DNA from: a virus
IMG/VR virus record: IMGVR_UViG_3300031576_000216
Location: 1-33,629 of that record
Length of the DNA stretch: 33,629 nt
Direction: 5' to 3' (one strand)
The notes beneath the pieces were generated by a model. That model had not been told where the DNA came from, made no database searches, and worked only from the letters and a program-made list of their open reading frames with translations. Below are positions 5,378 through 33,629 of the stretch, piece by piece. The stretch's first letter is position 1; the number at the start of each line of letters is the position of its first letter. The position numbers and the translations under genes were made by a program.

Positions 5378-5968
5378 CTACGCGAAGTAACCCAGCGCCA
5401 TCAACAGCGACAGTAGATTCTGTTGCGCCGCAGCACGATCGGCGGCGTTAAGTTGTTCTCGCTGTGCGGCGTACTGAGCCAAAACGTTGTTAATCGCCTG
5501 AATCTCCGAACCGGCCTGGATCCCACCCCCACCGATACCTTGCGCTAGCGCCCGCTGTCTCGCGAGGCGCCCCTCGGTTTCCGCCTCGTATTGTGCGGCC
5601 TGCTCGGATCGTTCCGCCCGTCGCTCCGTAGTTAGCGGATTCTTTCCCGCCAAAAGCTGCTCTAGGTCGGAAAAGGTCCGACTGTAAACGCCGCCGGTTC
5701 CATACACGTTGCCGCGCGCCGTCGGATCCAGATGTCGCGGATCTCTAGTTCGCCGATATCTTTCAACAGGTTGTCCAACCGCTGTCCCTAAGTGAGTTAG
5801 CCACCCTGCCGGCGGGGCACTGGACCCAAGAACGTACGCCTCTCGGGCGCGGCGACCGACTGGGCCTCCGCCACCAATAGGCTGGCTCACGAACCGGCGC
5901 GCCTCCGCCCCAATGGCCCGGCCTACCCGGCGAACCTCCCCGCCCCGCCCCAATCCAAGATCGCTCAT
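5378..5968 (-). CDS. putative virion protein (196 aa)
   Basis: A leftward late gene that overlaps the acetyltransferase gene by an ATGA junction (5965-5968). The N-terminal half is basic and Gly/Arg-rich. Residues about 105-150 are Glu/Arg/Ala-rich and probably helical (TTERRAERSEQAAQYEAETE). The C-terminus (QREQLNAADRAAAQQNLLSL) is another amphipathic helix. No recognised family. Its place among the internal virion genes and its helical, low-complexity character suggest an accessory virion or ejection protein. Confidence 0.6.
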   Translation of the reverse strand: MSDLGLGRGGEVRRVGRAIGAEARRFVSQPIGGGGPVGRRAREAYVLGSSAPPAGWLTHLGTAVGQPVERYRRTRDPRHLDPTARGNVYGTGGVYSRTFSDLEQLLAGKNPLTTERRAERSEQAAQYEAETEGRLARQRALAQGIGGGGIQAGSEIQAINNVLAQYAAQREQLNAADRAAAQQNLLSLLMALGYFA

Positions 5969-6477
5969 GCGTTATTCCTCCACCGCGCTTGCCGATACAT
6001 CAGCACTTCGTACGGCGTAAACCCCTTTTTAGTCCAGCGCTTTACCTGTGATTCTGTTGCTACCGCCGCGCACTCTATAACGTCTACCCGTAGTTCCTTT
6101 GCCCACTTTTCAACAGCCGCCTCTAGCCCACGCGCTACGGCCAAACAACGCCGAAACTCCGGAATCACATACATTTCAGCTACATGGACGTAAGTCTTTG
6201 GCCAACCGAATGGACGTTCATAGTTATAGGCTAACAGAAATCCAGCGGGCTGTCCATCGACTTTTGCAAGCCACAAATTCGTATCGTCGTCAAGCAATGA
6301 TTCAGAGAATTTCCGCGTTCGGTCAAGGATGACTTCGGAAGCATTTACGTCTATTTGGGGGTAGGCCATCCCGGCTTTGTAGGTTAGAAGCTCCTCCCGA
6401 ACAAGGGCCTGCCACATTTCGAACGCCACAAAAACCTCGCGGGCTTCGGCCAAGGCCACGGTAACTTTCTTATCCAA
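5965..6477 (-). CDS. GNAT-family N-acetyltransferase (170 aa)
   Basis: A single GNAT domain of about 150 residues, the usual size. The conserved core is visible: a beta-4 strand and acetyl-CoA loop around residues 105-125 (VAEMYVIPEFRRCLAVARGL), then the long helix and a C-terminal strand with W-x-K-K-G-F-x-P-Y, typical of the last GNAT motif. The P-loop equivalent, normally Q/R-x-x-G-x-G/A, reads R-R-C-L-A-V-A, so the first glycine is absent. The family transfers an acetyl group from acetyl-CoA to an amine. The gene sits between receptor-binding and internal virion genes and overlaps the 362-aa gene by eight bases, so it is expressed late. The substrate is unknown; an acetylated phage or host protein is possible. 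Such isolated GNAT genes recur in podovirus structural modules. Confidence 0.8.
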   Translation of the reverse strand: MDKKVTVALAEAREVFVAFEMWQALVREELLTYKAGMAYPQIDVNASEVILDRTRKFSESLLDDDTNLWLAKVDGQPAGFLLAYNYERPFGWPKTYVHVAEMYVIPEFRRCLAVARGLEAAVEKWAKELRVDVIECAAVATESQVKRWTKKGFTPYEVLMYRQARWRNNA

Positions 6478-21225: not shown

Positions 21226-21585
21226 TTGCGCGCGACGTTTCGCCCGTTCGTCAAACGGCGCGGGGTGACACTAAACGGGCTTGTGAGGGATTGCTTGGAC
21301 CAAGACCAGTTTCCAGGATGTTGCGGGATAACCGTACTTGTTTCGTTAGGCTACGACATCCACCCAGCAAATTCCCCGCCCATAACGTTAGCCGGTGTAA
21401 GGGCGGCGATTGCTAAAAACGCCAGCGAAACTCGGAATGGTTTGTTACTCGCAGTCACGAATCACGAACAGAAACGCCCCGCCATGGTACTTTACAACGC
21501 GGGATTCCGAAAGCTCAAAGTATTCCGGAACCCGCGCCATGGAAGCCGCCCACTGATTCTTTGGTATCGGAGGGCAACCAAATGA
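21226..21585 (+). CDS. hypothetical protein, first gene of the amidoligase operon (119 aa)
   Basis: Frame open from a TTG at 21226; a GTG at 21265 is the alternative start. No ATG is available and no strong ribosome site is seen. The product contains P-G-C-C-G-I-T-V-L-V-S-L-G-Y-D-I, a central A-A-I-A-K-N-A-S-E-T-R-N-G-L-L-L-A-V-T, and a C-terminal stretch (YNAGFRKLKVFRNPRHGSRP). The C-terminal part is vaguely like the closing strands of acyltransferase folds, but I would not assign it. It joins the next gene by an ATGA overlap. Confidence 0.55.
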   Translation: MRATFRPFVKRRGVTLNGLVRDCLDQDQFPGCCGITVLVSLGYDIHPANSPPITLAGVRAAIAKNASETRNGLLLAVTNHEQKRPAMVLYNAGFRKLKVFRNPRHGSRPLILWYRRATK

Positions 21586-21806
21586 ACCGACACGTCATCT
21601 TCTGGGAAGAAGTCGCAACGAACAACGTCGACCGGGCCGGAGCCAACCTGATAGCGGGGGTCCTCGCCGCGTCGGTGGGGCGCGCCGATCTCGCCAAAGA
21701 CTTCTCGCGGCGCGCGCAGCACTACGGAACAGTCGCCTCTATGGCGCGGTGCCAGCAATGGGCGCAGGAGGGGGCCATGGCTCCGGGAAATACGGAGATT
21801 CACTAA
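21582..21806 (+). CDS. small helical protein (74 aa)
   Basis: ATG at 21582 overlaps the preceding stop (ATGA), with GGAGGG seven bases upstream, so this start is well supported. The product is helical and Ala-rich (GANLIAGVLAASVGRADLAK), with no Cys-pair or membrane segment. It ends on a TAATG junction with the first amidoligase gene, so the two are translationally coupled and it may be an accessory or substrate of the ligase. Family unknown. Confidence 0.6.
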   Translation: MNRHVIFWEEVATNNVDRAGANLIAGVLAASVGRADLAKDFSRRAQHYGTVASMARCQQWAQEGAMAPGNTEIH

Positions 21807-22813
21807 TGTACGATATCGCCGCCATAAATTTCGGGGCCGATCCGGAGTTCGCGGTTGTGAATACGGCCACGGGTGAAGCAGTTCCAGCCCACAACTTCTT
21901 CCCGGATAAAGACCACAAGTTATATCCGTTAAGATACTCCACGGGTGCCGCTCTGTTCCGAGACGGTTATATGGTCGAAATTAACATGTCGCCGTATACT
22001 TGCCGAACGCATATCTTAGAGGAAGCTTCTGTACTCTTCCAAGAAGTTCGCCGGAGGCTACCGGTCGGGCACCGACTTTTAGCCGTCTCCGCAATCCCCG
22101 TAAAGCGCGCCGATCTCGTGGCTGCGCCGGCTGATGTCCGCGAGTTCGGATGTGAACCAAGCCTGGACGCCTACACCGAACGGAAGAAGTATGTAAACCT
22201 CGACGGCGTGAACCATGAGTGGCGTTACGCCGGGGGACACTTGCATTTTTCGGACACTTACGGTAAGAACGGCTTGGCGCATCCCGAGCAACACGCGCAC
22301 ATCATCAAGCGCCTCGACCGCTTTTTGGGGCTTCCTCTCTCCTACATCTTCGACAGCCCAGAGCAATATATGCGCCGTCGTTACTATGGACAGGCCGGCG
22401 AGTTTCGGACGCAACATTACGGGGAGAAACAGATCGGACTGGAATACCGCACCCCCGGTCCCGAGATGTGGAACCACTGGGCCTTCGTGAGCTTCGCAAT
22501 GGGCGTTGCGCGGCGCGTGATTCAGCAGGCCCAAATGTTCCCACTCGACATTTTCCCGGATGATGATGTGCGGGGCGCCATCAACGAAGGGATCGCTCTG
22601 GAGCGGATGGTCGCGGCGCTACCGCCGATGGTAAACTTCTACAATTTCGCGGTGTTGGGGGCGCTCCGGGATCTTTACCGGCGGGACTACGCCCGGAACC
22701 TCGTCGAATATCCGAGGGGATACGGGAATCTTTCCGCGTCCTTCACGGAATTCGCTAACGCAGACTGGAAGTTGCGGCCCCTATACCACGGACTTGCGAT
22801 AGGGGCGCTCTGA
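21806..22813 (+). CDS. phiEco32-like COOH-NH2 ligase-type 2 (amidoligase, 335 aa)
   Basis: Belongs by motif to the phage phiEco32-like amidoligases of the glutamine-synthetase-like superfamily, which make amide bonds between a carboxylate and an amine using ATP. Visible motifs: I-N-F-G-A-D-P-E-F (residues 7-15, the Gly-x-Asp-x-Glu metal/ATP motif), V-E-I-N (57-60), F-G-C-E-P-S (114-119), G-G-H-L-H-F (143-148) and L-E-Y-R-T-P-G (212-218). Start: ATG 21806 overlapping the previous stop, GGAG eight bases upstream; a longer frame from 21749 overlaps coding sequence and is rejected. It is the first of four ligase/amidotransferase enzymes in this operon. The substrate is unknown; a peptide or protein carboxylate is expected from the family. 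Confidence 0.85.
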   Translation: MYDIAAINFGADPEFAVVNTATGEAVPAHNFFPDKDHKLYPLRYSTGAALFRDGYMVEINMSPYTCRTHILEEASVLFQEVRRRLPVGHRLLAVSAIPVKRADLVAAPADVREFGCEPSLDAYTERKKYVNLDGVNHEWRYAGGHLHFSDTYGKNGLAHPEQHAHIIKRLDRFLGLPLSYIFDSPEQYMRRRYYGQAGEFRTQHYGEKQIGLEYRTPGPEMWNHWAFVSFAMGVARRVIQQAQMFPLDIFPDDDVRGAINEGIALERMVAALPPMVNFYNFAVLGALRDLYRRDYARNLVEYPRGYGNLSASFTEFANADWKLRPLYHGLAIGAL

Positions 22814-23031
22814 TGGCCCAGGATCCGGATAGTGGTGCGAAAGCCCAACAATGTGTCCTTTGCCATGGTTCGAGGGACCGAGGGTGCCCCCTCTGTCATG
22901 GATTTTCGCCCACGATAAAAGTTGAAACGGTCATGTCCTGTAACTGCCCGCGCGATATGATCTGGAGCAAAGGATGCCAATGCGGCGCGTTTAAGATGGA
23001 GATGGCGGCAAGGAAAACGAGGCGCGCATGA
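22813..23031 (+). CDS. zinc-ribbon-like protein (72 aa)
   Basis: Starts in a TGATG overlap with the amidoligase. Three Cys groups: C-V-L-C-H-G (residues about 14-19), C-P-L-C-H-G (25-30) and C-N-C-P with C-Q-C-G further on. The repeated C-x-x-C-H-G resembles DnaJ-type CxxCxGxG repeats, and also a heme-binding C-x-x-C-H motif, but no signal peptide is present, so zinc is more likely. The C-terminus is basic (KTRRA). Possibly an adaptor or chaperone-like component of the ligase operon; unproven. Confidence 0.65.
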   Translation: MAQDPDSGAKAQQCVLCHGSRDRGCPLCHGFSPTIKVETVMSCNCPRDMIWSKGCQCGAFKMEMAARKTRRA

Positions 23032-23282
23032 ACTGGTCTCGGCTCGAATTCTTCAGCGGGATTCTCGTCGGTGGAACACTTGTCGGTATCGTGGCGGGCG
23101 CCGAGCACAGCGATCACCAGAAACGCCTTCGGGGTGTCGAGGCCGCATTAGAGGAACGCGCGCACCTCATCGACTGTAACAAGGCGCTTGAGATGAGCCA
23201 CGATCTTCTCAATGCACAGGTCGCGTTGATGCGGTCCGGGGCACCGTGTGACGTACCCCAAGGGGTGGAGATAGAACCATGA
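23028..23282 (+). CDS. single-pass membrane protein with coiled coil (84 aa)
   Basis: ATGA overlap at its start. One hydrophobic segment at residues about 8-24 (FFSGILVGGTLVGIVAG) is followed by a charged helix (KRLRGVEAALEERAHLIDCN). The topology would leave a short N-terminus and a 55-residue coiled coil on the other side of the membrane. The C-terminus ends G-V-E-I-E-P. Similar in build to the left-edge protein of the late operon. It may anchor the pathway to the membrane or belong to lysis functions; no family assigned. Confidence 0.6.
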   Translation: MNWSRLEFFSGILVGGTLVGIVAGAEHSDHQKRLRGVEAALEERAHLIDCNKALEMSHDLLNAQVALMRSGAPCDVPQGVEIEP

Positions 23283-23428
23283 CGATTCTTAAACCGTGCA
23301 CCTGTCAGCACGAATACCAAGATCGCCGCTACGGGCGCGGGCTCCGCGTACACAATGCAACGAAGGGGCCGGCGCGTAGTGGGGCGCCGGGCTGGCGCTG
23401 TACGGTATGCGGACTGGAGAAGACATGA
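23279..23428 (+). CDS. small zinc-ribbon protein (49 aa)
   Basis: ATG 23279 overlaps the previous stop (ATGA) and the frame closes with TGA at 23426. The protein reads as a compact zinc ribbon: K-P-C-T-C-Q-H-E-Y-Q-D near the start, then G-R-G-L-R-V-H-N and G-W-R-C-T-V-C-G at the end. Small phage proteins with the pattern 'C-x-C-x-H-x-x-Q-D ... G-x-R-x-H-N ... R-C-T-V-C-G' are widespread and of unknown function, which supports this as a real gene despite its size. Confidence 0.65.
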   Translation: MTILKPCTCQHEYQDRRYGRGLRVHNATKGPARSGAPGWRCTVCGLEKT

Positions 23429-23577
23429 TTTATCCCCGCGCCGTCGAAATGACCCCTTGGCGCGAGTTGCTTCGGCGGATCGAGGCGCGGCACCAGCGCG
23501 CGCGGAATTGGGCGTTTCTGCGCGGGATTTTGTTCGGATTTAGCGTCGGGGTTCTCGGAATGTGGTTCCAACGATGA
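23425..23577 (+). CDS. small basic membrane protein (50 aa)
   Basis: ATGA overlaps at both ends tie it to its neighbours. The first 30 residues are basic (LLRRIEARHQRARN). A hydrophobic Gly/Phe-rich segment follows at residues about 29-46 (WAFLRGILFGFSVGVLGMWF), ending QR. Probably a single-span inner-membrane protein with a cytoplasmic basic N-terminus. Function unknown. Confidence 0.55.
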   Translation: MIYPRAVEMTPWRELLRRIEARHQRARNWAFLRGILFGFSVGVLGMWFQR

Positions 23578-24074
23578 AAGGGAAGGTGATGGCTATGCTC
23601 AAACGACTCTACCTCGCGATCATGCTTGCGCTCGGCTTCGGTGGCCCTGCGTGCGGGGTGCTGGATCTGGACGGGAAGGGCTCCGACAAACAGGACTTCA
23701 CCTGGACCAACTTCGACGGCACCTACATCGGCGACGTAGACGTGACGGTGACGTTCGGAAACGAAACCGACACCGCCGTCTACGAAGACGCCGAGTGGAT
23801 CGTGAACCAGGTGGGGCTCGGCCTTTCCTGGCTCGGCGTTCAGGGCTGGGTCAACGGCGACGTGATCGTTTTCTCCTCTGAAATCGAACGTTCTGTCTGG
23901 GGAGACAAGGACCATCCCTACGTGAAAGTTACCTACAGTGGGTCGGGCAACGAGGACACCGCCGAGATCCAGATGGACGTGGAATACATCTTGGAGGGCG
24001 GCGCCCATACGGGGGGTGGTCGTTATTTCTACGTGTTCAAGGACTTCCAGCGGGTGACCTATTTTCCCCAGTGA
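23574..24074 (+). CDS. exported beta-rich protein with signal peptide (166 aa)
   Basis: ATG at 23574 overlaps the preceding stop; ATG 23589 or 23595 are alternatives with GGGAAGG upstream. The N-terminus is a signal peptide: basic MKGKVMAMLKR, hydrophobic LYLAIMLALGFGG, then P-A-C-G. The Cys after G-P-A makes an imperfect lipobox, so lipidation is doubtful. The mature part is acidic and beta-rich (GTYIGDVDVTVTFGNETDTA). Codon use is very GC3-rich (about 85% over the first 60 codons by hand), unlike the neighbouring ligase genes, hinting at a separate origin. Possibly a periplasmic or cell-surface protein, perhaps an infection-modifying (moron-like) gene. Confidence 0.6.
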   Translation: MKGKVMAMLKRLYLAIMLALGFGGPACGVLDLDGKGSDKQDFTWTNFDGTYIGDVDVTVTFGNETDTAVYEDAEWIVNQVGLGLSWLGVQGWVNGDVIVFSSEIERSVWGDKDHPYVKVTYSGSGNEDTAEIQMDVEYILEGGAHTGGGRYFYVFKDFQRVTYFPQ

Positions 24075-24085
24075 ATCGAAAAGCG

Positions 24086-24173
24086 GCTAACGTGGCGGAA
24101 CCGGTAGACGCGAACGTGGTCACCCCACGTTGCCCCCGCGAGGGGCCTGTAGGTTCGAATCCTATCGTATGGC
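24086..24173 (+). tRNA. class II tRNA-like gene, Leu-type body, putative anticodon CAC
   Basis: Parts: acceptor 24086-24092 with 24166-24173 (A24169 bulged); D-arm GCG/CGC (24095-24097, 24109-24111) with a Leu-like loop containing CCGGTAGA; a six-bp anticodon stem AACGTG/CACGTT around loop GTCACCC (24119-24125, T33 present, anticodon CAC at 24121-24123); long variable arm GCCCC/GGGGC (24132-24146); T-arm GTAGG-TTCGAAT-CCTAT (24149-24165). No CCA is encoded. CAC would read the Val codon GUG, but valine tRNAs lack a long variable arm, so the body and anticodon disagree. Position 37 is C rather than a purine. It could be a degenerate tRNA or a specialised one. It lies inside the amidoligase operon. 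Confidence 0.55.
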
Positions 24174-24175
24174 CC

Positions 24176-24276
24176 GCGGCAAGTCAGGTGTAGGGGATGC
24201 AGGAACGCGAAATGCCGCAACCTCCCGGCGTTTAATGCGTGGTGCCTGTAGCGGTTCGACTCCGCCTTGTCGCCCA
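24176..24276 (+). ncRNA. tRNA-like RNA with 12-bp acceptor/T helix and long hairpin
   Basis: Begins two bases after the previous RNA. GCGGCAAG (24176-24183) pairs with CTTGTCGC (24266-24273, one G-U), stacked on a four-bp T-stem GCGG/CCGC with a canonical TTCGACT loop (24251-24265). CCA follows at 24274-24276. Between lie a small TGTA-GGGGA-TGCA hairpin (24189-24201, D-arm-like) and a 13-bp hairpin (24205-24217 with 24226-24240, AA bulge) with an eight-base loop CAACCTCC. No normal anticodon arm is found. The 8+4 helix resembles unusual class II 'allo-tRNAs' and tRNA-Sec, but the centre does not. Could be a tRNA mimic, a processed guide/scaffold RNA, or a decayed tRNA. Confidence 0.4.
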
Positions 24277-24283
24277 GAGTGGA

Positions 24284-24358
24284 ATGGAAACAATGATATT
24301 TTTACTGTGGCTTTATCTCGTTGCGTGGATCATTTTCTTCGTCTCGACGGAGGTTTGA
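24284..24358 (+). CDS. possible 24-aa membrane peptide
   Basis: A short frame just after the tRNA-like genes: ATG 24284 (or 24293) to TGA 24356. It encodes METMIFLLWLYLVAWIIFFV followed by STEV, almost purely hydrophobic, as in tiny phage membrane peptides. The ribosome site is weak. Its stop precedes the ATP-grasp start by four bases, and the SD of that gene lies inside its end, as in coupled genes. Could be real or the product of chance; it is also a candidate substrate for the adjacent ligases because of its free Glu near the C-terminus (speculative). Confidence 0.35.
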   Translation: METMIFLLWLYLVAWIIFFVSTEV

Positions 24359-24362
24359 CCAA

Positions 24363-25115
24363 GTGAGACGCGTTCTCGTAACCTGTGGCCGACGCTCCGA
24401 GTCCGCTACCGCCCTCGTTGCAGCACTTAACGCGGCCGGCGTAACGGCGGTTCGAAAACTGAACCTGGCGCGACAACCGGGCGCGAATTCCTTGGTAGTT
24501 AACTGGGGTACGATTGTTTTGCCGCCGTGGGAGGCGAACGGAGCGAAGGTTTTGAACTTGGTGCTGGCGGTTAACAAGTGGGAAGAACTTAAAACGCTGT
24601 TTGCGGGCGGAATTCCAACGATCCCGTTCATTAAACCGTGGGATACCTATGCCGGTGGAGTCGCCTTTTCCACGGATGTTTGGCTGCCGCGCAGTCTTCA
24701 TCATCACGGGGCGTCAGATTTGCGGCGTTTAAGAGCGGGGCGCGCCTTTCTTACGCGGCGTCTAACCTTCACCAAGGAATTTCGGGTGCATGTTTTCGAG
24801 GGGAAAAGCATTCGCGTCGGGCGGAAGGCCCCCAGGCCCGGCGCTACGGTTCATCCTTGGATTCGTAGCTATGCGACCGGATGGGATATCCTCTATGATA
24901 CCGCTGCGGTACAGGGAATGCGGAGCGGGTGGCGCGAGATCGCAAAGCGCGCCGTGGCCGCGCTGGACTACGATTTTGGCGCCGTTGACTTGGCCATCGA
25001 GGCCGAAACTAATCGGGCCGTGGTACTCGAAGTGAACAGCGCGCCGGGCCTGGATACGCCGGCCACCGCGCAGGCGTACGCACGCCACATCGCCGCTGTG
25101 GCTCGGGGGGACTAA
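24363..25115 (+). CDS. ATP-grasp ligase (250 aa)
   Basis: An ATP-grasp fold enzyme of the carboxylate-amine ligase superfamily. GTG 24363 is preferred because GGAGG lies nine bases upstream. Motifs: K-P-W-D-T-Y (residues 91-96), E-F-R-V-H-V-F-E-G (139-147, typical of the RimK-like group), D-F-G-A-V-D-L (204-210) and V-L-E-V-N-S-A-P-G-L-D (221-231), which gives the metal-binding Glu-x-Asn pair. It activates a carboxylate as acyl phosphate and joins an amine. At 250 residues it is short for the fold. It overlaps the next gene by TAATG. ATP-grasp plus amidoligases plus glutamine amidotransferase is the gene set described for phiEco32-like phages, so it probably acts in the same peptide-building pathway. 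Confidence 0.85.
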   Translation: MRRVLVTCGRRSESATALVAALNAAGVTAVRKLNLARQPGANSLVVNWGTIVLPPWEANGAKVLNLVLAVNKWEELKTLFAGGIPTIPFIKPWDTYAGGVAFSTDVWLPRSLHHHGASDLRRLRAGRAFLTRRLTFTKEFRVHVFEGKSIRVGRKAPRPGATVHPWIRSYATGWDILYDTAAVQGMRSGWREIAKRAVAALDYDFGAVDLAIEAETNRAVVLEVNSAPGLDTPATAQAYARHIAAVARGD

Positions 25116-27010
25116 TGGCCGTTGTCCTGAAATTGCCGTGCCTTCCCGGATGTTCGACGCCGCCTGCCCTGTTAGGCTACGTGAAGGGGGGGCATGTTCC
25201 AAGTGCTAGTGGAAATGGGCAGATTTGCTGGGCGCATCTCGGCGAGTTTTTGATGTGTCGCGTTTGCCGTTTCGCAGTATCCGAAAAAAACGCCCACGTC
25301 CGCAAACGAAAAGGGAAGGACGGCAGAACCGTTTGGCAGACGATTTGCCGGTGCTGCTGCCGGAGCTGCGAGCTGCGGCCAACGCGCCCGGCGCTCGGCC
25401 CCAAACCGGACGACTGGAGCAGCCTGGCCCTACGTCCGAATCGTGTCGCCTGCCCCAATTGTCACGAAGTCACACTACCCGCAGCCTACAATATCCGAGG
25501 GGCGACCTGCCATAGCTGTGCGCTAGGTGTCGGGCGTTGTGACAAGTGTGCAGATTGGATGGGTACAAATTCAGGATGTACGGTTCAAGTTGCGGCACAG
25601 CCTGGACAGCCGCCGGACCTAGGGCGCGAACATCTGAGTCAGCGTTGGTGTGAGAAACACGCCGAGATCCAAAGGGCACCTACCTGCAAAGAGTGTAAGG
25701 CACATCTCATTGACCCCACCGGTATAGTTATGGTTGAGGGCGGGGCCATCTTTTGTCAATTTTGTGCCCCACTTTACGTCTGGCGCTGCGCTACCTGTCA
25801 TAAAATAAAAGAGGCGACGATCGTTCACAACGACGTCTATTCGCTTGCGCCATTGCCACCTCTTGAGCCGCGGCTACCTGGGGGCTTGTGCCGTGGGACT
25901 TGCAGCGAGGGCAGACGGAGATGTGCAGCGTGCCGACGAGTAGAGATCTTGCCGGGATTGATTACGCCGCCCATCCTTTTATGCGGTAGTTGCAACAACG
26001 AGTTCCGGCGCTGCACCGGATGTGGTGACCTTATCGAGCGCCCCCGCCTGCGTTGCAACGGCTGCACCGTGATTCAACTACATACCGCCAGGGCGCCAGC
26101 GGTGATAGGATGGCTCGGTACCCCGAAATGTCACGTTAATTGCGTGTCCACTGGGGCCGTTAACCACAAAATTCCGCCTGCCGGCTGTACGTTTAACGGG
26201 ATCTATTTCGGCGTAGAACTAGAGGTCGAGGTGCGCGCGGGTGACGTGGAGGAATACGCCGCGAAGGTTTTGAGTCTTCTTCCTAAGAAGGTGATCGTAA
26301 AGCGCGATGGGTCGTTGACACGGGGTTTCGAGATCGTTTCCGGGCCGGCAGTATTGATGTGGCACCGAACCGGATGGGACCCGTTGTTTGAATGGAACGA
26401 TCGGGAACGCGTTCTGCTCAGCCACGACGCACCTAAAGCAACGTGTGGGTTGCATGTTCACGCTAGTCGTGGCCCGCTTGGTGGGTTGCAAATTGCAAAG
26501 ATGGTTCACTTCTTGCACGCTCCGGAGAACCGCCGCTTCGTCGAGATCCTGTCCGGCCGCCCGGCCGGACACTTTCAGGACTACCTGACCCCCAAAGGCT
26601 GGTTTCTAGGGGCAAAAGACGTAAAGTGGGGCGGGCTTAACGACGGAGATCGGAATGCCGTACGCTTGGTGCAGACCAACCGACCAACCGGGCAAGAGTT
26701 CTGGTCGTTGCGCCGCGACGGACATCGTTACACGGCGCTGAATCTTACTAATTACGATACCATCGAATTCCGGCTGTTCCGCGGAACTATGAAACGCGAG
26801 ACCTTCTTAGCGCGGCTTGAGTTTTGCGCCGCGCTAATCCGGTGGTGTCAAACGGCGGGTGCCGGTGTTCGAGAACTTCTATGGGAGAAGTTCGTGGAGT
26901 GGTTCAGGAACAATTCCGGACGACAGGAATACCCGTGGTTGAACGGGTACCTGGCGCGAGCGGGATACGTCCCGAAACTCGTCGAGAGCCCGAGAAGGGC
27001 GGCCGTCTAA
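25115..27010 (+). CDS. amidoligase with large multi-zinc-finger N-terminus (631 aa)
   Basis: Residues 1-350 contain at least twelve C-x-x-C pairs, including CRVC, CPNC, CHSC, CDKC, CKEC, CQFC, CATC, CAAC, CGSC and CTGC, spaced like successive treble-clef or LIM-like fingers, about six zinc sites. From residue 360 the amidoligase (Pfam 'putative amidoligase') begins: Y-F-G-V-E-L-E-V-E (364-372, GxExE), K-R-D-G-S-L-T-R-G-F-E-I-V-S-G-P, C-G-L-H-V-H-A-S (His pair) and T-I-E-F-R-L-F-R-G-T (about 549-558). It is ATP-dependent and forms amides on a carboxylate. The zinc array may hold substrate or RNA. Linked by overlap to both neighbours. Such a long finger array fused to an amidoligase is striking; I do not know a precise precedent. 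Confidence 0.8.
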   Translation: MAVVLKLPCLPGCSTPPALLGYVKGGHVPSASGNGQICWAHLGEFLMCRVCRFAVSEKNAHVRKRKGKDGRTVWQTICRCCCRSCELRPTRPALGPKPDDWSSLALRPNRVACPNCHEVTLPAAYNIRGATCHSCALGVGRCDKCADWMGTNSGCTVQVAAQPGQPPDLGREHLSQRWCEKHAEIQRAPTCKECKAHLIDPTGIVMVEGGAIFCQFCAPLYVWRCATCHKIKEATIVHNDVYSLAPLPPLEPRLPGGLCRGTCSEGRRRCAACRRVEILPGLITPPILLCGSCNNEFRRCTGCGDLIERPRLRCNGCTVIQLHTARAPAVIGWLGTPKCHVNCVSTGAVNHKIPPAGCTFNGIYFGVELEVEVRAGDVEEYAAKVLSLLPKKVIVKRDGSLTRGFEIVSGPAVLMWHRTGWDPLFEWNDRERVLLSHDAPKATCGLHVHASRGPLGGLQIAKMVHFLHAPENRRFVEILSGRPAGHFQDYLTPKGWFLGAKDVKWGGLNDGDRNAVRLVQTNRPTGQEFWSLRRDGHRYTALNLTNYDTIEFRLFRGTMKRETFLARLEFCAALIRWCQTAGAGVRELLWEKFVEWFRNNSGRQEYPWLNGYLARAGYVPKLVESPRRAAV

Positions 27011-27939
27011 TGTGTATCATCGCGTTAAAAACGGCGGGGGGCCGGTTAACGGAAGATATGCTCCGCGCCTGTTTTACCTCGAACAAGGACGGCGCGGGTT
27101 ACGCCACGGCCATAATCAACGCCAAGAAAGACTACTCCATCTACCTCAAAAAAGGATTTTTTACATTCCCAAAATTCTACAAGGAATACGAGTCCGATAT
27201 TACCGACAAGCATACGGCGCTCGTCCACTTTCGGATCGCTACCCATGGCGAAATCGGGGAAGACAATTGCCACCCGTTCAAGTTCGCGGCACACGGGCAC
27301 GAATACGCCGTCGCGCACAACGGCGTGCTGGGGGCCTTCTCCAATCAGGTGTGCGGGAGCAAGTCCGATACCCGGCTATTCGTTGAACGAGTTATCGTCC
27401 CGCTCGCGCAGAAGGACCCGCGGTTTTTCACGAATCGACGTATGCACGACGCCTTGTCCGCCGCAATCGGCAGTTACAACAAGGTCGCCCTCCTCCGCGA
27501 CGACGCTAAATACGTGCTCTTGAATGGGGCGAAAGGGGATTGGGTTGACGGGGTGTGGTTCAGCAACGGGAGCTACAAGCCCTGGCCTCGGTACACCGCA
27601 TCAAGTTTGGCCTACTATGATGGCGATGACGACGATCAGTGGAGTGGGCAGCGCGCGCCGAACCCACTAGATAGGTGGATCGACGGGATGCAGGCTTGTA
27701 GAGCAGGATATAGCTACGATCCCACTATCGGGGAGAATTATCGCCGCGGTTTCCTCGATGAAATTGTTGTCTTCGAGAAATATTCCGATTTCCGGCAGGG
27801 AAAGAAGACGGCGCTTCACCCAACTAAGCCTTATGATCCCCCCGCGGATCACGAAGGTCATAAACGCTACCACACCGGGTGGCTGTGGGGCTTATGGATT
27901 GCAGCCCCGGTTAATAGTAACGGAGGATATCTACAATGA
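27010..27939 (+). CDS. class II glutamine amidotransferase (309 aa)
   Basis: ATG 27010 overlaps the previous stop. Cys2, exposed after Met removal, is the Ntn-type nucleophile. Conserved class II motifs: H-F-R-I-A-T-H-G (residues 73-80), N-C-H-P-F (86-90), A-H-N-G-V-L (102-107) and S-D-T-R-L-F (119-124). It hydrolyses glutamine and supplies ammonia, or hydrolyses gamma-glutamyl groups, for amide formation by a partner ligase. No synthase domain is attached; the C-terminal 150 residues are unassigned. The partner is presumably the amidoligases just upstream. An ATGA overlap follows with the 310-aa gene, with GGAGG upstream of it. Confidence 0.88.
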   Translation: MCIIALKTAGGRLTEDMLRACFTSNKDGAGYATAIINAKKDYSIYLKKGFFTFPKFYKEYESDITDKHTALVHFRIATHGEIGEDNCHPFKFAAHGHEYAVAHNGVLGAFSNQVCGSKSDTRLFVERVIVPLAQKDPRFFTNRRMHDALSAAIGSYNKVALLRDDAKYVLLNGAKGDWVDGVWFSNGSYKPWPRYTASSLAYYDGDDDDQWSGQRAPNPLDRWIDGMQACRAGYSYDPTIGENYRRGFLDEIVVFEKYSDFRQGKKTALHPTKPYDPPADHEGHKRYHTGWLWGLWIAAPVNSNGGYLQ

Positions 27940-28868
27940 CCCCATACGTGGGATCGCAGAAAACAAACCACACGCATGAGGACTTCGAGCGGGCCGATAT
28001 GAATTGTTTGGCCTGCCGAAAGCGTTTGATCCGCACATTCCACAAGAAGCATCTCGCCGAAGCGGAAGCGTTTAACATTAGCTGCCTGGTTTGCGATCAG
28101 CGCCGGGGTGAGGCGCGTGAGCCTTCGAAAGTAGGGGGCCGTTTGACAAAGAAAGAACGGCGCGCAGCGAAGGCGAGGTTAAAGGAACTGCGCGCTGAGG
28201 CGAAGAAAACGGGGGGTGAAAAAACCATGACCCCGTGGTCTCCGGCGAAAGTCTCCGATGATGAAGCCAACATGGCCTTTATTATGATGTTGTCGGTACG
28301 CGATCCCGTTTTTCTAGAGCCGATGGCACGAACCTTGCGCCACTGGTTGGATGACAAGATGTCGGCGTTGCGCGACGCAGTTCGGGAAGAGGAGAAAGTT
28401 AACGAGCCCACGCCAGCCCCGGCAATATTGTTACCGCCGGCCCCCGAGACCGTCACGAACCTTCCGTTTGGGAAAAGGCTCGGTCCAGAACACACCCATG
28501 GGACGCGTTTTCGTTATGTAAGCAGCTGCCCCGCTTGTTACGTTGAGGTGCGTGGGAAGCCGGAGCCGCAGCAACGCGCCCTGTCACTGGTTTCCGATCC
28601 GACGATTGCCGAGGCGGCTATGGAAGGAAATCGCCAGATAACCCTCATCGGGATTGCCGACAGCGAATTCGATGAGGACCCACTGATGAACTTCAAAGCC
28701 ATGGCGTGCGGGCATATCTGGATCGGGCGCCTGACCGATAACGCGCTGTGGTGCCCGCGCTGCAAGTCCAAGCGGACCGGCGGACTACATGGTTGGCGCA
28801 TCCGAAATATGGAGGATCCCGATGTCAAAGCATTCCTCGAATTCGAAAAAGCGGCGCGTACGAGTTAA
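27936..28868 (+). CDS. multi-zinc-site protein of unknown function (310 aa)
   Basis: ATG 27936 with GGAGG eight bases upstream. Cys pairs: C-L-A-C (residues about 24-27), C-L-V-C (50-53), C-P-A-C (near 199), then C-G-H ... C-P-R-C (about 250-270). A basic Lys/Arg-rich helix follows the second pair (KKERRAAKARLKELRAEAKK). A proline-rich linker near residue 155 separates N- and C-terminal parts. It is translationally coupled to the amidotransferase, so it is likely in the same pathway. The basic helix and zinc sites suggest nucleic-acid contact. It may be two fused small proteins. Confidence 0.65.
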   Translation: MTPYVGSQKTNHTHEDFERADMNCLACRKRLIRTFHKKHLAEAEAFNISCLVCDQRRGEAREPSKVGGRLTKKERRAAKARLKELRAEAKKTGGEKTMTPWSPAKVSDDEANMAFIMMLSVRDPVFLEPMARTLRHWLDDKMSALRDAVREEEKVNEPTPAPAILLPPAPETVTNLPFGKRLGPEHTHGTRFRYVSSCPACYVEVRGKPEPQQRALSLVSDPTIAEAAMEGNRQITLIGIADSEFDEDPLMNFKAMACGHIWIGRLTDNALWCPRCKSKRTGGLHGWRIRNMEDPDVKAFLEFEKAARTS

Positions 28869-29157
28869 CCTCGCCACAAAGGTCGCGATCCCATCGGATC
28901 TGGAGCGGCAATGCGCCGGATGCGGCGAGTTCTTCACACCTTCCTCGGAGGGACAGATGGTTTGTGAAGATGCGTGCCGACCGTTAGCGAATCATGTGCG
29001 GTCCACCGCCGAGGAGCATTTTGCGGAGCGGGCGCGGACTTACCCTGGATTGGGTCAGGTTCCGCGGCCAACGCAGATTAATCCTAGGCTGCCCAACCCT
29101 TTAACGTGGGTCGTTACCGACGCCGATCTGCGCGACTGGGTCAACACGCCCCGTTAA
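28822..29157 (+). CDS. zinc-finger protein (111 aa)
   Basis: ATG 28822 with GGAGG six bases upstream, inside the 3' end of the preceding gene (47-base overlap). A C-A-G-C pair near residue 30 and a second C-E-D-A-C give a C2-C2 site. The N-terminus is Lys/Arg/Ser-rich, the middle is helical and acidic, and the C-terminus ends D-W-V-N-T-P-R. The last gene of the coupled operon; a minus-strand gene lies downstream. Unknown function. Confidence 0.6.
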   Translation: MSKHSSNSKKRRVRVNLATKVAIPSDLERQCAGCGEFFTPSSEGQMVCEDACRPLANHVRSTAEEHFAERARTYPGLGQVPRPTQINPRLPNPLTWVVTDADLRDWVNTPR

Positions 29158-29337
29158 AATCGGGGCCTCCTGCGACACCCGTAAATGCCATTCTTCGTGA
29201 CAAACTGGACAGGACCCGTTAGCATGGATCAGGTTTTGTAGCGCCGTGAATTTCGTCCCGCATTTGGGACACGCCCACCGCAGACACCATTGGGTTTGTA
29301 TCTCTTCCACGCAATAAGTATACCATGGCGGGGCCAC
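29101..29337 (-). CDS. antisense-oriented zinc-ribbon protein (78 aa)
   Basis: The only likely minus-strand gene in the right half, filling a 167-base gap in plus-strand coding. The product has a textbook zinc ribbon: A-C-P-K-C-G-T-K-F ... S-C-P-V-C-H-E-E-W. It starts at ATG 29337 (GGTGG nearby; the start would overlap the ATPase gene by 13 bases) or at GTG 29310. Its 3' end overlaps that of the 111-aa zinc-finger gene by 57 bases. The clean pair of CPxC knuckles argues against a chance frame. Its TATACT, seen from the minus strand near 29321, could be a -10 element. Confidence 0.45.
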   Translation of the reverse strand: MAPPWYTYCVEEIQTQWCLRWACPKCGTKFTALQNLIHANGSCPVCHEEWHLRVSQEAPILTGRVDPVAQIGVGNDPR

Positions 29338-30323
29338 CAGTAAAACTGAAGCCGCCCCGCCTACTGGACTGGTTGGGCGCCGAAACGCCGGACCCTTCCT
29401 GGCTAGTGGATGGGCTCGTCCCGGCTGGGAGTCTGGATATGGTTAGCGGCCCCCGTAAGGCGGCGGGTAAAACGCTGTTTGCGATGCATCTAAGCGCGGC
29501 CATCGCGGCAGGAGTCCCGGCGTTTGGGACGATAAAAACGGCCGCGGATGGGGTGCCGGTCCTCTTTATGGAAGAAGAGGGTGCCTCACCGGAGACCCGC
29601 AAACGGGTGTTGGGGATTCTACGAGGACTCGGGATGGATCCAAAGACGGGGGCTGGGTCGGATGCGCTGCGCCGATTGGAAGCCAACTTCCGGTTCGAAC
29701 ACCATCCACGGGTTAAACTTGACAACCCGTTTTGGGTGGCGGCGCTATGCGGAGCGGTTAAGGAGTACGGGATAAAACTCGTCGTTCTTGACGCGATTAC
29801 TTACATGATTTCCGGGGACGAAAATGCTAAGCGGGATATGTCCGCCGTTAACGATGCGCTGTTCGCGATGCGACAGTGCGGCGCTGGCGTACTCTACCTT
29901 GTCCATACAAATAAGCAGGCGCAGCGTGAAGACGCCGATCCCGATTTGGATGTCCGAGGCTCCTCTGTATTGCTAGACGCCTATGACGCGCATTTCGCGC
30001 TCCGGCGGCGGAGGGGCTCTAGCGTATCGCTTCTGGCCCGTTATCGGGATTTCGAAGAGAAGCGGTATCGTGTGGGTTGGGACTTTGGAGAAGCCATTAT
30101 CACTGGTTCACTTGTTCCGGTGGCTTTTGAGGAGGTCGAAACCGAGCGTTTACGGGGTCTTATCGGACGGCTTTTGCCAGGTGTGGATTATTCTGCCGCG
30201 GAATTAGGGCGAAGTTTCGACGTGATCGGGAAATCCGCCGGGGATATGATAAATTCACTTGTAAAAGTAGGGCTTCTTGTGCCATCATTACGGGGTACAT
30301 TTCGGAGGAACGAGGTACCGTGA
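29325..30323 (+). CDS. RecA-like ATPase, AAA_25/RepA type (332 aa)
   Basis: A RecA-fold ATPase of the hexameric helicase type. The N-terminal 40 residues (P-R-L-L-D-W-L ... L-V-D-G-L-V-P-A-G-S) are typical of RepA/AAA_25 proteins. Walker A reads S-G-P-R-K-A-A-G-K-T (residues 41-50), with five rather than four residues between Gly and GKT. Then F-M-E-E-E-G (about 83-88), Walker B K-L-V-V-L-D-A (about 150-156), and V-H-T-N-K (about 191-195) with a sensor His. A winged-helix-like C-terminus (YSAAELGRSFDVIGKSAGDM) may bind DNA. Likely a replicative helicase or loader. No Shine-Dalgarno is seen; it overlaps the next gene by GTGA. Confidence 0.8.
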   Translation: MAGPPVKLKPPRLLDWLGAETPDPSWLVDGLVPAGSLDMVSGPRKAAGKTLFAMHLSAAIAAGVPAFGTIKTAADGVPVLFMEEEGASPETRKRVLGILRGLGMDPKTGAGSDALRRLEANFRFEHHPRVKLDNPFWVAALCGAVKEYGIKLVVLDAITYMISGDENAKRDMSAVNDALFAMRQCGAGVLYLVHTNKQAQREDADPDLDVRGSSVLLDAYDAHFALRRRRGSSVSLLARYRDFEEKRYRVGWDFGEAIITGSLVPVAFEEVETERLRGLIGRLLPGVDYSAAELGRSFDVIGKSAGDMINSLVKVGLLVPSLRGTFRRNEVP

Positions 30324-30574
30324 CCAAATCGGCAGTAGGTTTGATCTTGGCCGCGCTGGTTGCAGGCGATTCGCCGGACCCGGCCACGCCCCCCGAAGCC
30401 CCTTGCGCCGCCAATGAAGCTGTCCTCCCGGTTACGATTTGGGTTGGGGACGTCGAGTGGGGCCTTATCTTCTGTGGTAACCTTGAAACGAACGACGAAA
30501 ACGGCATTCCGAAACAGTGGGTGCTAAAGTATTACGTCCCTTTGGACCTAAACGTCCGCCAGGAGTCCTTGTAA
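30320..30574 (+). CDS. small protein with hydrophobic N-terminus (84 aa)
   Basis: A GTG start overlaps the ATPase stop. The first 16 residues are hydrophobic (SAVGLILAALVAG), followed by an acidic Pro-rich linker and a C-terminal domain with P-V-T-I-W-V-G and W-G-L-I-F-C-G. This could be a signal peptide with an exported domain, or an N-terminal helix. No family recognised. Confidence 0.55.
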   Translation: MTKSAVGLILAALVAGDSPDPATPPEAPCAANEAVLPVTIWVGDVEWGLIFCGNLETNDENGIPKQWVLKYYVPLDLNVRQESL

Positions 30575-31018
30575 ATGTCCATGTATACGATCCCCGCACC
30601 CGCTTGGAACGATCTTAAAGAACTTACCGAGGTGCTAAAGCGCGCCCGCGAGAAGGTATTTGCGCGATGGGAGGGGCTTGCGGACGATCTAAAGTTCGTC
30701 GCGCCCACCGTTTCTATCGTGGACGAGGAGGCCGGTGTAATCGAAGCCGAACCGCGCCCGTCCCCAGGGTATCTCAAACACCGCAAGATGTTGCTGGTGG
30801 CCGACGCTCTGCGCGAGATGCCTGAAGTGGATCGGGTGGAGACGGTGCGCCTTGCCGAGCTTCCAGTTAAAATTTCACTTGCCGAGCAGATTGCCTGGTT
30901 ACAAGAAGGCGCCGGACTTGAAGCGGCGGCTACGGCTGACCATCCGCCTGTCGGGCTGGACTTCAATAATATGGTTGAGGTCGGCGAGCCACCAAAAGAT
31001 CCTAACTCGCTAAACTAG
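30575..31018 (+). CDS. hypothetical helical protein (147 aa)
   Basis: Begins directly after the previous stop. The first 60 residues are charged helix (LKELTEVLKRAREKVFARWE). The middle contains Y-L-K-H-R-K-M-L-L-V-A-D-A-L, and the C-terminus is acidic and probably flexible. No metal site or signal. It sits between an ATPase and a helicase, so a replication or recombination accessory role is possible. Confidence 0.55.
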   Translation: MSMYTIPAPAWNDLKELTEVLKRAREKVFARWEGLADDLKFVAPTVSIVDEEAGVIEAEPRPSPGYLKHRKMLLVADALREMPEVDRVETVRLAELPVKISLAEQIAWLQEGAGLEAAATADHPPVGLDFNNMVEVGEPPKDPNSLN

Positions 31019-31028
31019 CGGGGTTCAA

Positions 31029-31292
31029 ATGCTCTTTTATGAGTGCGACGGCTGCTTCCGGCAGTGCGTTACCTCACCAAGTCATTTGTTGGGGGCGCTG
31101 CCCGTACCGATTGATTGGTTCGGGTTGGAGTTTACGGTAGACGGCGAGTATCCTGTTTCTCGAATTCTGTCGTGCAGCACGGCGTGCAAGAAAACGGCGT
31201 TAGCGCGGGTAAAAGGAAAATACCCGACGGCACGCGGAAAATCTGTCAAGCGTTTAACATGGACGGGCGGCCCGGTTTTCCGCCGCCGATAG
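31029..31292 (+). CDS. small zinc-binding protein, paralogue of the late-operon leader (87 aa)
   Basis: Begins MLFYECDGC, with a second cysteine cluster C-S-T-A-C (residues about 49-53). Comparison with the 110-aa protein at 18710-19042 shows the same order: F-Y-x-C-D-G-C, a central hydrophobic part with P-x-x-W, then R-x-L or V-x-x-x-C-S-x-x-C and a Lys/Arg/Ala tail. The shared spacing suggests common ancestry. Zinc-binding is inferred. The C-terminus is basic (RLTWTGGPVFRRR), and it ends directly before the helicase gene. Confidence 0.6.
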   Translation: MLFYECDGCFRQCVTSPSHLLGALPVPIDWFGLEFTVDGEYPVSRILSCSTACKKTALARVKGKYPTARGKSVKRLTWTGGPVFRRR

Positions 31293-32855
31293 ATGCGTAG
31301 ACTTTTAGTTCTTCCGCATACCGATCCATGGATGGTACGGTTACGCTTTCCTTTTGACGCGAGACTAAAGAATGCCCTCAAAGAATACCCGGGCGTTGCC
31401 TGGGTTGACACCGCGTTCGGAAAAGAATGGGTTGCGCCCAGGGAGATGGTCTCGGAGCCTCTTCACGTTATCGCCGCACGATTTGATTTGGTTGTTGACG
31501 TATTCGACGCTGACCGAGTACGAGTTGTTGGAACTGAAGAACCTGGCGGATCGCTACTTCGATTCCAGAGGGAAGCGGCGCAAAGAGCCCGCACCAGCCC
31601 TGACAATGGCTTCCTGTTTAACTTTGAAATGGGGCTCGGCAAAACCCCGGCGGCGCTCGAAGCGACGCGTCTCCTCGGGATAACGAATCCGTTAATTGTT
31701 TGCCCCGCGATGGTGCGCGCCCATTGGGTTAATGAGATCCGGCGCTGGCGTCCGGACCTTGAAGAGATTACAGAGATTTGTAACGGTGATTCCGCCGCTA
31801 AAATACAAGCTCTTCGGCCGGCACTTTTTGGAGCAACTGTCACAACCTATGGGCTTCTGCACCACATGTCAGAAGTGGGTGCCGGCGCGATTATTCTTGA
31901 CGAACTCCACTATCTACAAGGCGAATCTGCGGCCCGGACGATGGCTTGTGATAAACTGTTGCGGAATAACCCAATTGCGTGGCGCGCTGGACTCACCGGG
32001 ACACTCATTACCCGCGACCCAATGAGCATGTGGAAACCTTTGAATACGTTGTTTCCGGGACGTTTTGGAACGAGATCACAATACGGCCGGCGTTATTGCA
32101 AGGGGAATGCTGAGAGTGGATACGGGACGCGTTACTTTGGAGTGAACGATGAAACAAGTGGCGAGCTTCGTGAGCGCCTAAGCTATTTTTCCGAACGCGT
32201 CACGAAAGACGATCCGGATGTGGCGGCGTTATTGCCGCCTTTTATTCCGGCTCGTTACGATACGCTCGCCGCGTACCGTTATCAAGATGCTGCGAAGATC
32301 GCAGATAACTGCGTCCGGCAGGGCGCATCGAAAGTCCTGATTCTAACGCATTTGCGCCGGGCGACGCAACTCTGTGCCGCCGCCGCTATAAAACTCGCCG
32401 ACGAAAATTGGACGATTGTCGGAACTTCCGGCGAAGATCCGGTGTCGAAACGTGAAAAGATTTTCGCCGCCGCCCGCGCCCGAGACCCCGCCACACCCAC
32501 CATCGTCTGCGCTACAATGCATTGTTGCAACGTGGGAATCAACCTTAACTGGTTCGATGACGTAATCTTTGCTGAGCTGGACCTTGACATGACGGCGGTT
32601 GTACAGGCGCTCGGACGGTTCGCGCGACTTGGCGGTGGAGGAGCGGTGCGGATTCACGTCTTGTGGGACCGCAGTGGAGATAGGGTGGGGAATGCACTAC
32701 TCGACAAGATCCGGGCCGCGGGTGACATCATAAAGATAGGTCGCACCGAGCGGTTGTTCACTGAGGCGATGCCGGGCGCCAGTGCCGCCCCGGCCCTTTC
32801 GGAACAAGAGAAAGACTTGCTGCTCGCCTCTATGGCGGAAGGGGCTATCGACTAA
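31293..32855 (+). CDS. SNF2/DEAD-like helicase (520 aa)
   Basis: A superfamily 2 helicase of the SNF2 type. Q-motif-like L-L-R-F-Q-R-E-A; motif I F-E-M-G-L-G-K-T (residues about 111-118); motif II I-L-D-E-L-H (about 201-206); T-G-T with L-T-G-T-L-I-T-R as motif III; C-terminal lobe with I-L-T-H-L-R-R and motif VI Q-A-L-G-R-F-A-R-L-G (about 438-447). The N-terminal 85 residues form a small extra domain. It starts directly after the zinc-binding gene. Phage SNF2-like enzymes act in recombination-dependent replication or strand exchange. A single-stranded-DNA binder or nuclease was not identified here. Confidence 0.85.
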   Translation: MRRLLVLPHTDPWMVRLRFPFDARLKNALKEYPGVAWVDTAFGKEWVAPREMVSEPLHVIAARFDLVVDVFDADRVRVVGTEEPGGSLLRFQREAAQRARTSPDNGFLFNFEMGLGKTPAALEATRLLGITNPLIVCPAMVRAHWVNEIRRWRPDLEEITEICNGDSAAKIQALRPALFGATVTTYGLLHHMSEVGAGAIILDELHYLQGESAARTMACDKLLRNNPIAWRAGLTGTLITRDPMSMWKPLNTLFPGRFGTRSQYGRRYCKGNAESGYGTRYFGVNDETSGELRERLSYFSERVTKDDPDVAALLPPFIPARYDTLAAYRYQDAAKIADNCVRQGASKVLILTHLRRATQLCAAAAIKLADENWTIVGTSGEDPVSKREKIFAAARARDPATPTIVCATMHCCNVGINLNWFDDVIFAELDLDMTAVVQALGRFARLGGGGAVRIHVLWDRSGDRVGNALLDKIRAAGDIIKIGRTERLFTEAMPGASAAPALSEQEKDLLLASMAEGAID

Positions 32856-32882
32856 TGATTCACAACCGAAAGGGCTGGCGCT

Positions 32883-33086
32883 ATGATTGGCGATGAATTT
32901 GGAGCGTTCACCTGTGCTTACTGCGGGGGGCGGTTCGACGCGGAAAACCTCTTTGTTTCGTGGGATGAGCGTAACTGTTGCGAGCCGTGTTATCGAACCG
33001 AATCCGACACTCTGGTAGAGGAGCAGCCCGGCGACCCGGTGCTTCACTGGTGGCCGGAACTTGACTGGGGGACTGATGTCACCTGA
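32883..33086 (+). CDS. zinc-ribbon protein (67 aa)
   Basis: Two Cys pairs, C-A-Y-C-G-G (residues 11-16) and C-C-E-P-C-Y (32-37), 20 residues apart, as in compact zinc ribbons. The C-terminus is acidic (DPVLHWWPELDWGTDVT). Between the helicase and this gene are 27 bases; an alternative 13-codon frame starts within them at the TAATG after the helicase. The next gene overlaps by 11 bases. Function unknown. Confidence 0.6.
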   Translation: MIGDEFGAFTCAYCGGRFDAENLFVSWDERNCCEPCYRTESDTLVEEQPGDPVLHWWPELDWGTDVT

Positions 33087-33495
33087 ACTAGACGAAAAGC
33101 TGTGTAAAACATTTCCGCTTCTCTACGCGGACCGTTGCGCCAACATGCGTGGAACCGCGATGTGCTGGGGATTCTCGTGCGGTGACGGATGGTTTGACCT
33201 TATCTGGCGACTATCCGAGAAGCTGGAGGTGTTGATAAAAGAAGTTAAGGATAAGCTAACGCCGGAAGAGGTTGGGTGGGGCTATGTGCCGCGCGCTTCT
33301 CAAGTGAAAGAGAAATATGGGGGCCTGCGTTTTTACATGAGCACCGAAACCGAGGCGATGTCCAAGGCAATAGCGGATGCCGAGCGGAAAGCCTACAAAA
33401 CCTGCGAGGTGTGCGGGAAACCTGGAAAAACCAACACAAGTGGATGGCTACGAACGCTGTGTAGGGTACACCGAAAAGAAAGCGATGACCGTTAA
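33076..33495 (+). CDS. conserved phage protein of the 'CGDGWFDL' type (139 aa)
   Basis: ATG 33076 is chosen over an upstream in-frame start at 33061 because GGGGGA precedes it. The sequence has the recognisable pattern of a widespread phage and bacterial hypothetical family: C-W-G-F-S-C-G-D-G-W-F-D-L-I near residue 40, then V-K-E-K-Y-G-G-L-R-F-Y (residues about 77-87) and a C-terminal C-E-V-C-G-K-P-G zinc site. Function unknown. A short overlap joins it to the next gene. Confidence 0.7.
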   Translation: MSPELDEKLCKTFPLLYADRCANMRGTAMCWGFSCGDGWFDLIWRLSEKLEVLIKEVKDKLTPEEVGWGYVPRASQVKEKYGGLRFYMSTETEAMSKAIADAERKAYKTCEVCGKPGKTNTSGWLRTLCRVHRKESDDR

Positions 33496-33629
33496 ACAGA
33501 CTCGGTTGTTGCGTAACTGCGCTCGCTGCCGACGGTGCGGGTATACGATTGAAAGCAAATTCCGGCACGATTTCGTGCCGTGTCGCTGTGGGGCGATCTT
33601 TGTGGATGGCGGGCTGGAATACGCGCGGC
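33485..33629 (+). CDS. small zinc-ribbon protein, partial (DUF7695-like)
   Basis: Starts at ATG 33485, overlapping the previous gene, and runs off the window end. Visible: C-A-R-C-R-R-C-G-Y-T-I-E-S-K-F-R-H-D-F-V, then P-C-R-C-G-A-I-F-V-D-G-G-L-E-Y. The pattern 'I-E-S-K-x-x-H-D-F-V-x-C-x-C-G-A-I-x-V-D-G-G' is a known small conserved phage and bacterial protein, normally about 60-70 aa, so most of it is present. Function unknown. Confidence 0.6.
   Translation, partial: MTVKQTRLLRNCARCRRCGYTIESKFRHDFVPCRCGAIFVDGGLEYAR

Follow-up and report, generated by a model that had tools for sequence, protein, structure and literature searches.

What would a phage make with two amidoligases, an ATP-grasp ligase and a glutamine amidotransferase encoded side by side? 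The four genes lie in a 33,629-base IMG/VR virus record, a fragment of a phage genome; this whole stretch is called the window here. The chemistry of such enzymes is familiar. Glutamine-synthetase-like ligases and ATP-grasp enzymes activate a carboxylate as an acyl phosphate, which an amine then attacks, and class II glutamine amidotransferases (GATases) free ammonia from glutamine. Do the four genes form a single functional unit, and on what would that unit act?

On the minus strand of the window, from 141 to about 20,234, portal, terminase and major head protein are encoded among other genes. A GNAT acetyltransferase (5965-6477, minus strand; phrog_1249, 4e-10) sits amid these structural genes. 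The plus-strand genes start at about 20,273 and continue, by way of the cassette, to helicase and primase-like genes (29,325-32,855); the cassette lies directly upstream of this replication region. Of 50,697 phage records none is a near match in DNA to the stretch 21500-33600, and a terminase-based search found no close phage relative.

The cassette is made of two gene chains (Table 1). The first, with seven genes (21582-24074), has a 1- or 4-nt overlap at every junction; the second, with four (24363-28868), is joined by TAATG/ATGA overlaps. Between them lies a gap of 288 nt that holds one or two tRNA-like elements. An earlier note on this DNA had described an overlap-coupled operon at 21806-27939 with small genes interleaved. 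The coupling holds and reaches further, upstream to 21582 and downstream to 28868, and the small genes comprise two membrane ORFs of one helix each, two Cys ORFs and an exported one. No relatives were recognised for the hydrophobic small proteins of the chain. Profile searches gave no family match for the 23574-24074 protein and no family above cut-off for the 27936-28868 protein. Promoter and terminator scans returned hits at chance level only.

Table 1. Genes and tRNA-like gene of the two chains and the gap between them.
Feature	Position	Strand	Basis
Small gene, 74 aa	21582..21806	+	ORF; 1-nt overlap (TAATG) to COOH-NH2 ligase start
COOH-NH2 ligase, phiEco32 type, 335 aa	21806..22813	+	PF14395, phrog_3815; glutamine-synthetase-like fold
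Small Cys-rich protein, 72 aa, 2 CxxC, 8 Cys; putative zinc ribbon	22813..23031	+	Sequence; TGATG overlap
Small protein, 84 aa, one N-terminal hydrophobic helix	23028..23282	+	Max Kyte-Doolittle 1.76; ATGA overlap
Small Cys protein, 49 aa, 4 Cys; putative zinc ribbon	23279..23428	+	Sequence; ATGA overlap
Small protein, 50 aa, C-terminal hydrophobic helix	23425..23577	+	Max Kyte-Doolittle 1.65; ATGA overlap
Putative exported protein or lipoprotein, 166 aa, N-terminal signal-like segment	23574..24074	+	Max Kyte-Doolittle 1.88 at residue 12; ATGA overlap
tRNA-like gene, long variable arm, anticodon CAC	24087..24174	+	ARAGORN
ATP-grasp ligase, 250 aa	24363..25115	+	phrog_2599; RimK/alpha-L-glutamate ligases the nearest structures
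Amidoligase, C-terminal ~275 aa, with Cys-rich N-terminal array (13 CxxC)	25115..27010	+	phrog_16683, Amidoligase_2
Class II (Ntn) glutamine amidotransferase, short type, Cys2 nucleophile, 309 aa	27010..27939	+	GATase_4
Cys-containing protein, 310 aa, 4 CxxC	27936..28868	+	ATGA overlap with GATase; Cys count

Family matches confirm each of the four enzymes that had been read from the sequence. The COOH-NH2 ligase matches PF14395 above the cut-off (E 1.1e-15) and phrog_3815 (8e-23). Across an alignment of 32 relatives, residues D12/E14, H145/H147 and E213/R215 are invariant, and the DPE, GGHxH and EYR motifs are invariant or nearly so in the 32 sequences. Its predicted structure (pLDDT 80) gives VIA Z scores of 14.7-15.4 against Dop, PafA, GshA and YbdK, and of 12-15 over a set that comprises Dop, PafA, gamma-glutamylcysteine ligase, YbdK and glutamine synthetase.

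The second amidoligase carries the zinc array. It matches phrog_16683 (6e-27) and, slightly below the Pfam cut-off of 22 bits, Amidoligase_2 (20.6 bits, E 4e-4). Its GxExE, GxH and ExR motifs are intact, with G366/E368/E370, G445/H447 and E551/R553 invariant. The model has a mean pLDDT of 65.7 and is reliable for the C-terminal domain only, the Cys array being mostly of low confidence; within that domain, residues 354-630 superpose on YbdK at VIA Z 13, with about 220 residues aligned at 3.8-3.9 A; glutamine synthetases are matched as well. A sequence-only search for solved relatives gave no credible one for either amidoligase. From these models both are predicted to be ATP-dependent carboxylate-amine ligases with a glutamine-synthetase-like fold, as in YbdK, gamma-glutamylcysteine ligase and Dop/PafA.

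The remaining two enzymes are assigned by profile. The GATase matches GATase_4 (4.5e-7) and, among structures in the PDB, the glutaminase domains of GlmS and PurF (1.7e-8), with C2, R75, N104/G105 and D120 conserved in the motifs Cys2, HFR, HNG and DT. The ATP-grasp protein matches phrog_2599 (1.4e-27); its profile finds alpha-L-glutamate ligase 7qyr (1.2e-15) and RimK 4iwx (4.8e-15) at the top of the PDB, and the ExR, FGAVD and ExN motifs and the metal-site residues are conserved among homologues. Its gene most likely starts at GTG 24363, because GGAGG precedes this codon and homologues align there. By sequence score the protein resembles RimK without belonging to the family as NCBIfam defines it (TIGR00768 rimK_fam, 18.7 bits against a cut-off of 143.4), and it also scores below the cut-offs of the R2K Pfam models (R2K_2, 20.2 against 26.2 bits; R2K_3, 18.3 against 26.3). 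Conservation of the active sites had been set beforehand as a test of the earlier note; the catalytic residues are conserved in all four enzymes, which are predicted to be active.

Do the four genes travel together? We fetched IMG/VR loci with each of the four window proteins, keeping the best 80 per query; linkage was counted after near duplicates were removed, with 4 kb required on both sides. All four enzymes lie within 5 kb in 42 of 49 non-redundant loci of COOH-NH2 ligase relatives, as the earlier note had expected of genes that belong together, and in 30 of 54 ATP-grasp loci. The association goes beyond chance, since the four families co-occur in most related viral loci. Pairing with the GATase is tighter still: it lies within 5 kb in all 54 ATP-grasp loci and in 31 of 32 loci of zinc-type amidoligases, and in a count over 80 zinc-type amidoligases it lies within 1 kb of 78. 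Outside such loci the cassette genes are rare: at E 1e-5, any one window enzyme matches between 5 and 271 of the 50,697 phage records.

These loci fall into two lineages. The first, found in phiEco32, LUZ24-like phages and Zobellviridae, combines the COOH-NH2 ligase, a plain amidoligase, a long GATase and the ATP-grasp protein, often with a gamma-glutamyl cyclotransferase (within 5 kb in 22 of the 49 ligase loci). The second is a widespread two-gene set, a zinc-type amidoligase followed by a short GATase, and an ATP-grasp gene is present in about half of the loci fetched with the GATase. Of the 128 sampled loci that hold a ligase gene, 87 carry the first set. Only one, the window itself, has a confident zinc-type amidoligase together with a short GATase and the ATP-grasp protein, among the best 80 loci per query. 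One further locus (L025) has the same mix without the ATP-grasp gene, its whole 59 kb record having been checked. To judge by these family assignments the window cassette is a hybrid, with its zinc-type amidoligase and short GATase drawn from the second lineage. It amounts to a natural exchange experiment, in which the ligase and ATP-grasp protein of the first lineage stand beside the amidoligase/GATase pair of the second. Because the window joins genes of two lineages in this way, it suggests that the pair is an interchangeable catalytic core.

Two suggestions of novelty in the earlier note did not survive this comparison. A new composition had been put forward, and we rejected it as a strong claim: most relatives hold the same set of enzyme classes, the cassette as a whole has been published as a peptidoglycan-modification module, and in the sample it is the exact lineage mix alone that is rare. 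Nor is the zinc-array fusion new, because the zinc-type family is marked by Cys-rich N-termini: of 80 homologues in bacterial genomes, most of them Clostridia, 69 have at least four CxxC motifs. A GATase lies within 1.5 kb in 76 of the same 80. Five contigs of Butyricicoccus pullicaecorum DSM 23266 (L361, L367, L381, L383 and L393) each carry a zinc-type amidoligase; with the adjoining GATase in 76 of 80, this suggests that the pair forms repeated mobile elements in Clostridia. Arrays can be extreme, as in the relative at L019:8360-9607, which has 27 CxxC motifs; locus L059 (9251-14465) holds two zinc-type amidoligase genes. In 56 loci, among them L281 (4764-4964), a conserved small Cys protein (about 66 aa, MRCxACNKxLxDFESTRKS...) is encoded downstream of the GATase, mostly at a distance of 0.5-1.5 kb. 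No relative of it could be detected in the window; the 27936-28868 protein was considered as one and rejected (E 0.35).

The tRNA-like elements had also been counted as part of the composition. The gene at 24087-24174 has a long variable arm, a Leu-like D arm and the anticodon CAC (Val), with C at position 37 and a weak acceptor stem; it reads as chimeric or decaying, or as non-decoding. A second tRNA-like element or remnant at 24177-24276 has the T-loop GGTTCGACTCC, a terminal CCA, an 8-bp outer stem and a long inner hairpin, and ARAGORN misses it unless the threshold is relaxed. For the elements of the gap, Rfam gave no family above its cut-off. Module spans account for 24% of the DNA across the loci, but just 3 of 117 tRNAs, the window's included, fall within them. 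We therefore rejected the embedded RNAs as parts of the cassette, and the tRNA-like gene is probably incidental to it.

What the cassette is can be stated with some assurance: we put at roughly 95% the probability that the window set is a peptide-bond-forming cassette of the phiEco32/RIO-1 kind. It would make non-ribosomal amide or isopeptide bonds. The tight amidoligase-GATase pairing leads us to infer that ammonia passes directly from the GATase to its neighbour, which would use it to amidate a carboxylate. The COOH-NH2 ligase and the ATP-grasp protein would add amino acids, probably of the Glu/Gln type, in successive steps, and the zinc array is probably a surface on which the amidoligase docks a partner or substrate. 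The 'full pathway' of the earlier note is unproven, the cyclotransferase often seen beside the cassette having no match in this fragmentary record.

On what, then, would the cassette act? Most likely it would alter, at an early stage of infection, the stem peptide of host peptidoglycan or its precursors; later phages would then be kept out by superinfection exclusion, or wall metabolism would be made to suit the phage. We give even odds that the cassette acts on the envelope. Envelope peptides are preferred because of published prediction, of early expression in phage HP1 and, less tellingly, of the hydrophobic and exported small proteins; the membrane genes may be unrelated to cassette function. 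For RIO-1-like podoviruses, PMC5498523 reports a cassette of seven genes for peptidoglycan modification that is conserved in phiEco32, 7-11, PA11, tf, MR299-2, LUZ24, PaP3 and CW02, and credits it to Hardies 2013 and to Iyer and colleagues (Iyer 2009). The same description is given for other phages (PMC11945000, PMC6256558), and amidoligase and GATase genes have been noted in OM43 phages (PMC10580990). In HP1 the predicted peptidoglycan-modification genes are expressed immediately on infection (PMC7082346), which fits a role before lysis, and the window cassette, too, is probably transcribed early. Our partial literature search found no experiment on the substrate or product of the cassette, the published role being a repeated prediction. 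Within the window cassette we found no wall-specific enzyme or binding domain. Apart from the core enzymes and replication genes, the neighbourhood clusters that we looked at held small Cys proteins and proteins of unknown function, none of them evidently a peptide substrate, and the four enzymes match no PADLOC defence model at E 0.01.

Nothing in these sequences tells whether envelope peptides, proteins or nucleic acids are modified, and the main rival is protein tagging. One or more host proteins would receive glutamate, glutamine or short peptides from the ligases, which would so redirect host machinery during takeover, with the zinc array recognising the target. RimK modifies ribosomal protein S6, and PafA works with Pup; the ATP-grasp profile is nearest RimK/S6-glutamate ligase, and PafA and Dop are among the best fold matches of the COOH-NH2 ligase. 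Burroughs and colleagues (PMC4431377) argue that phage R2K ATP-grasp enzymes modify host proteins, and early expression in HP1 (PMC7082346) would suit tagging too. Yet the glutamine-synthetase-like fold matches include small-molecule enzymes at equal Z, a glutaminase and two further ligases exceed the needs of a RimK-type reaction, and no dedicated tag protein or conserved peptide gene is evident beside the module. We regard tagging as unlikely, if worth keeping in view. Those same fold matches, YbdK and the gamma-glutamylcysteine ligases, would also fit synthesis of a small molecule or free peptide, that is, of a gamma-glutamyl or amidated metabolite (glutathione-like or poly-glutamyl) for nitrogen storage, redox or signalling, as would the gamma-glutamyl cyclotransferase beside many modules. 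The window itself shows no cyclotransferase, however, and the zinc-rich domain would suggest a macromolecular partner. To our knowledge phages rarely carry complete anabolic routes to a free metabolite, and such a product seems quite improbable here.

The zinc array could equally bind nucleic acid. It might dock the amidoligase on DNA or tRNA, where the cassette would amidate or aminoacylate a modified base; the 13 CxxC motifs, the tRNA-like gene inside the cassette and the position directly upstream of replication genes all suit this. But the scan of window proteins recognised no enzyme that modifies bases or prepares nucleotides, related modules show no enrichment of tRNAs, and no more than two CxxC motifs precede the amidoligase domain in well over half of the viral zinc-type relatives that were measured. 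We consider nucleic-acid modification very unlikely. About as unlikely is a more specific form, in which the zinc-array pair, having replaced the usual amidoligase and GATase, would direct ATP-dependent amidation through its array to nucleic acid or nucleoprotein; instead of a wall peptide, a tRNA, DNA or a component of translation would then be modified.

Such cassettes recur across many podovirus lineages, with early expression in the single phage for which timing is reported. Like that of phiEco32, LUZ24 and phiRIO-1, the window cassette combines a COOH-NH2 ligase, an Amidoligase_2 protein, an ATP-grasp protein and a class II GATase, and adjoins replication genes. The same gene set is found in phiEco32 (gp80, gp83, gp84, gp86), UFV-P2, PQ867851 and Pecta. 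The link that the earlier note drew to the phiEco32 systems predicted by Iyer and colleagues is thus upheld, with detectable homology of the ligase to gp86 (2e-8) and of the ATP-grasp protein to gp80 (2e-14, 34% identity). RimK and the alpha-L-glutamate ligases provide the best solved-structure matches of that ATP-grasp profile, but the protein itself falls in the phage lineage phrog_2599. The window differs from the phiEco32/LUZ24/phiRIO-1 cassette in lacking a recognised gamma-glutamyl cyclotransferase, a KZY ORF19-type protein and a second GATase-like protein of the KZY ORF16 type, all often present there, and in taking its amidoligase and GATase from the zinc-type lineage. That pair is known from Methylophilales phages MEP401/402, Caudoviricetes MW202733 and Clostridia, as an adjacent amidoligase and Cys2 GATase of the same families as in the window (34% identity to the MEP GATase, 30% to the MW202733 amidoligase), commonly with a Cys-rich N-terminus. 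MEP402 and MW202733 have no match to the window COOH-NH2 ligase, and none to its ATP-grasp protein among the best 60 of 271 records, whereas the window sets the pair in a larger cassette and gives it a longer array.
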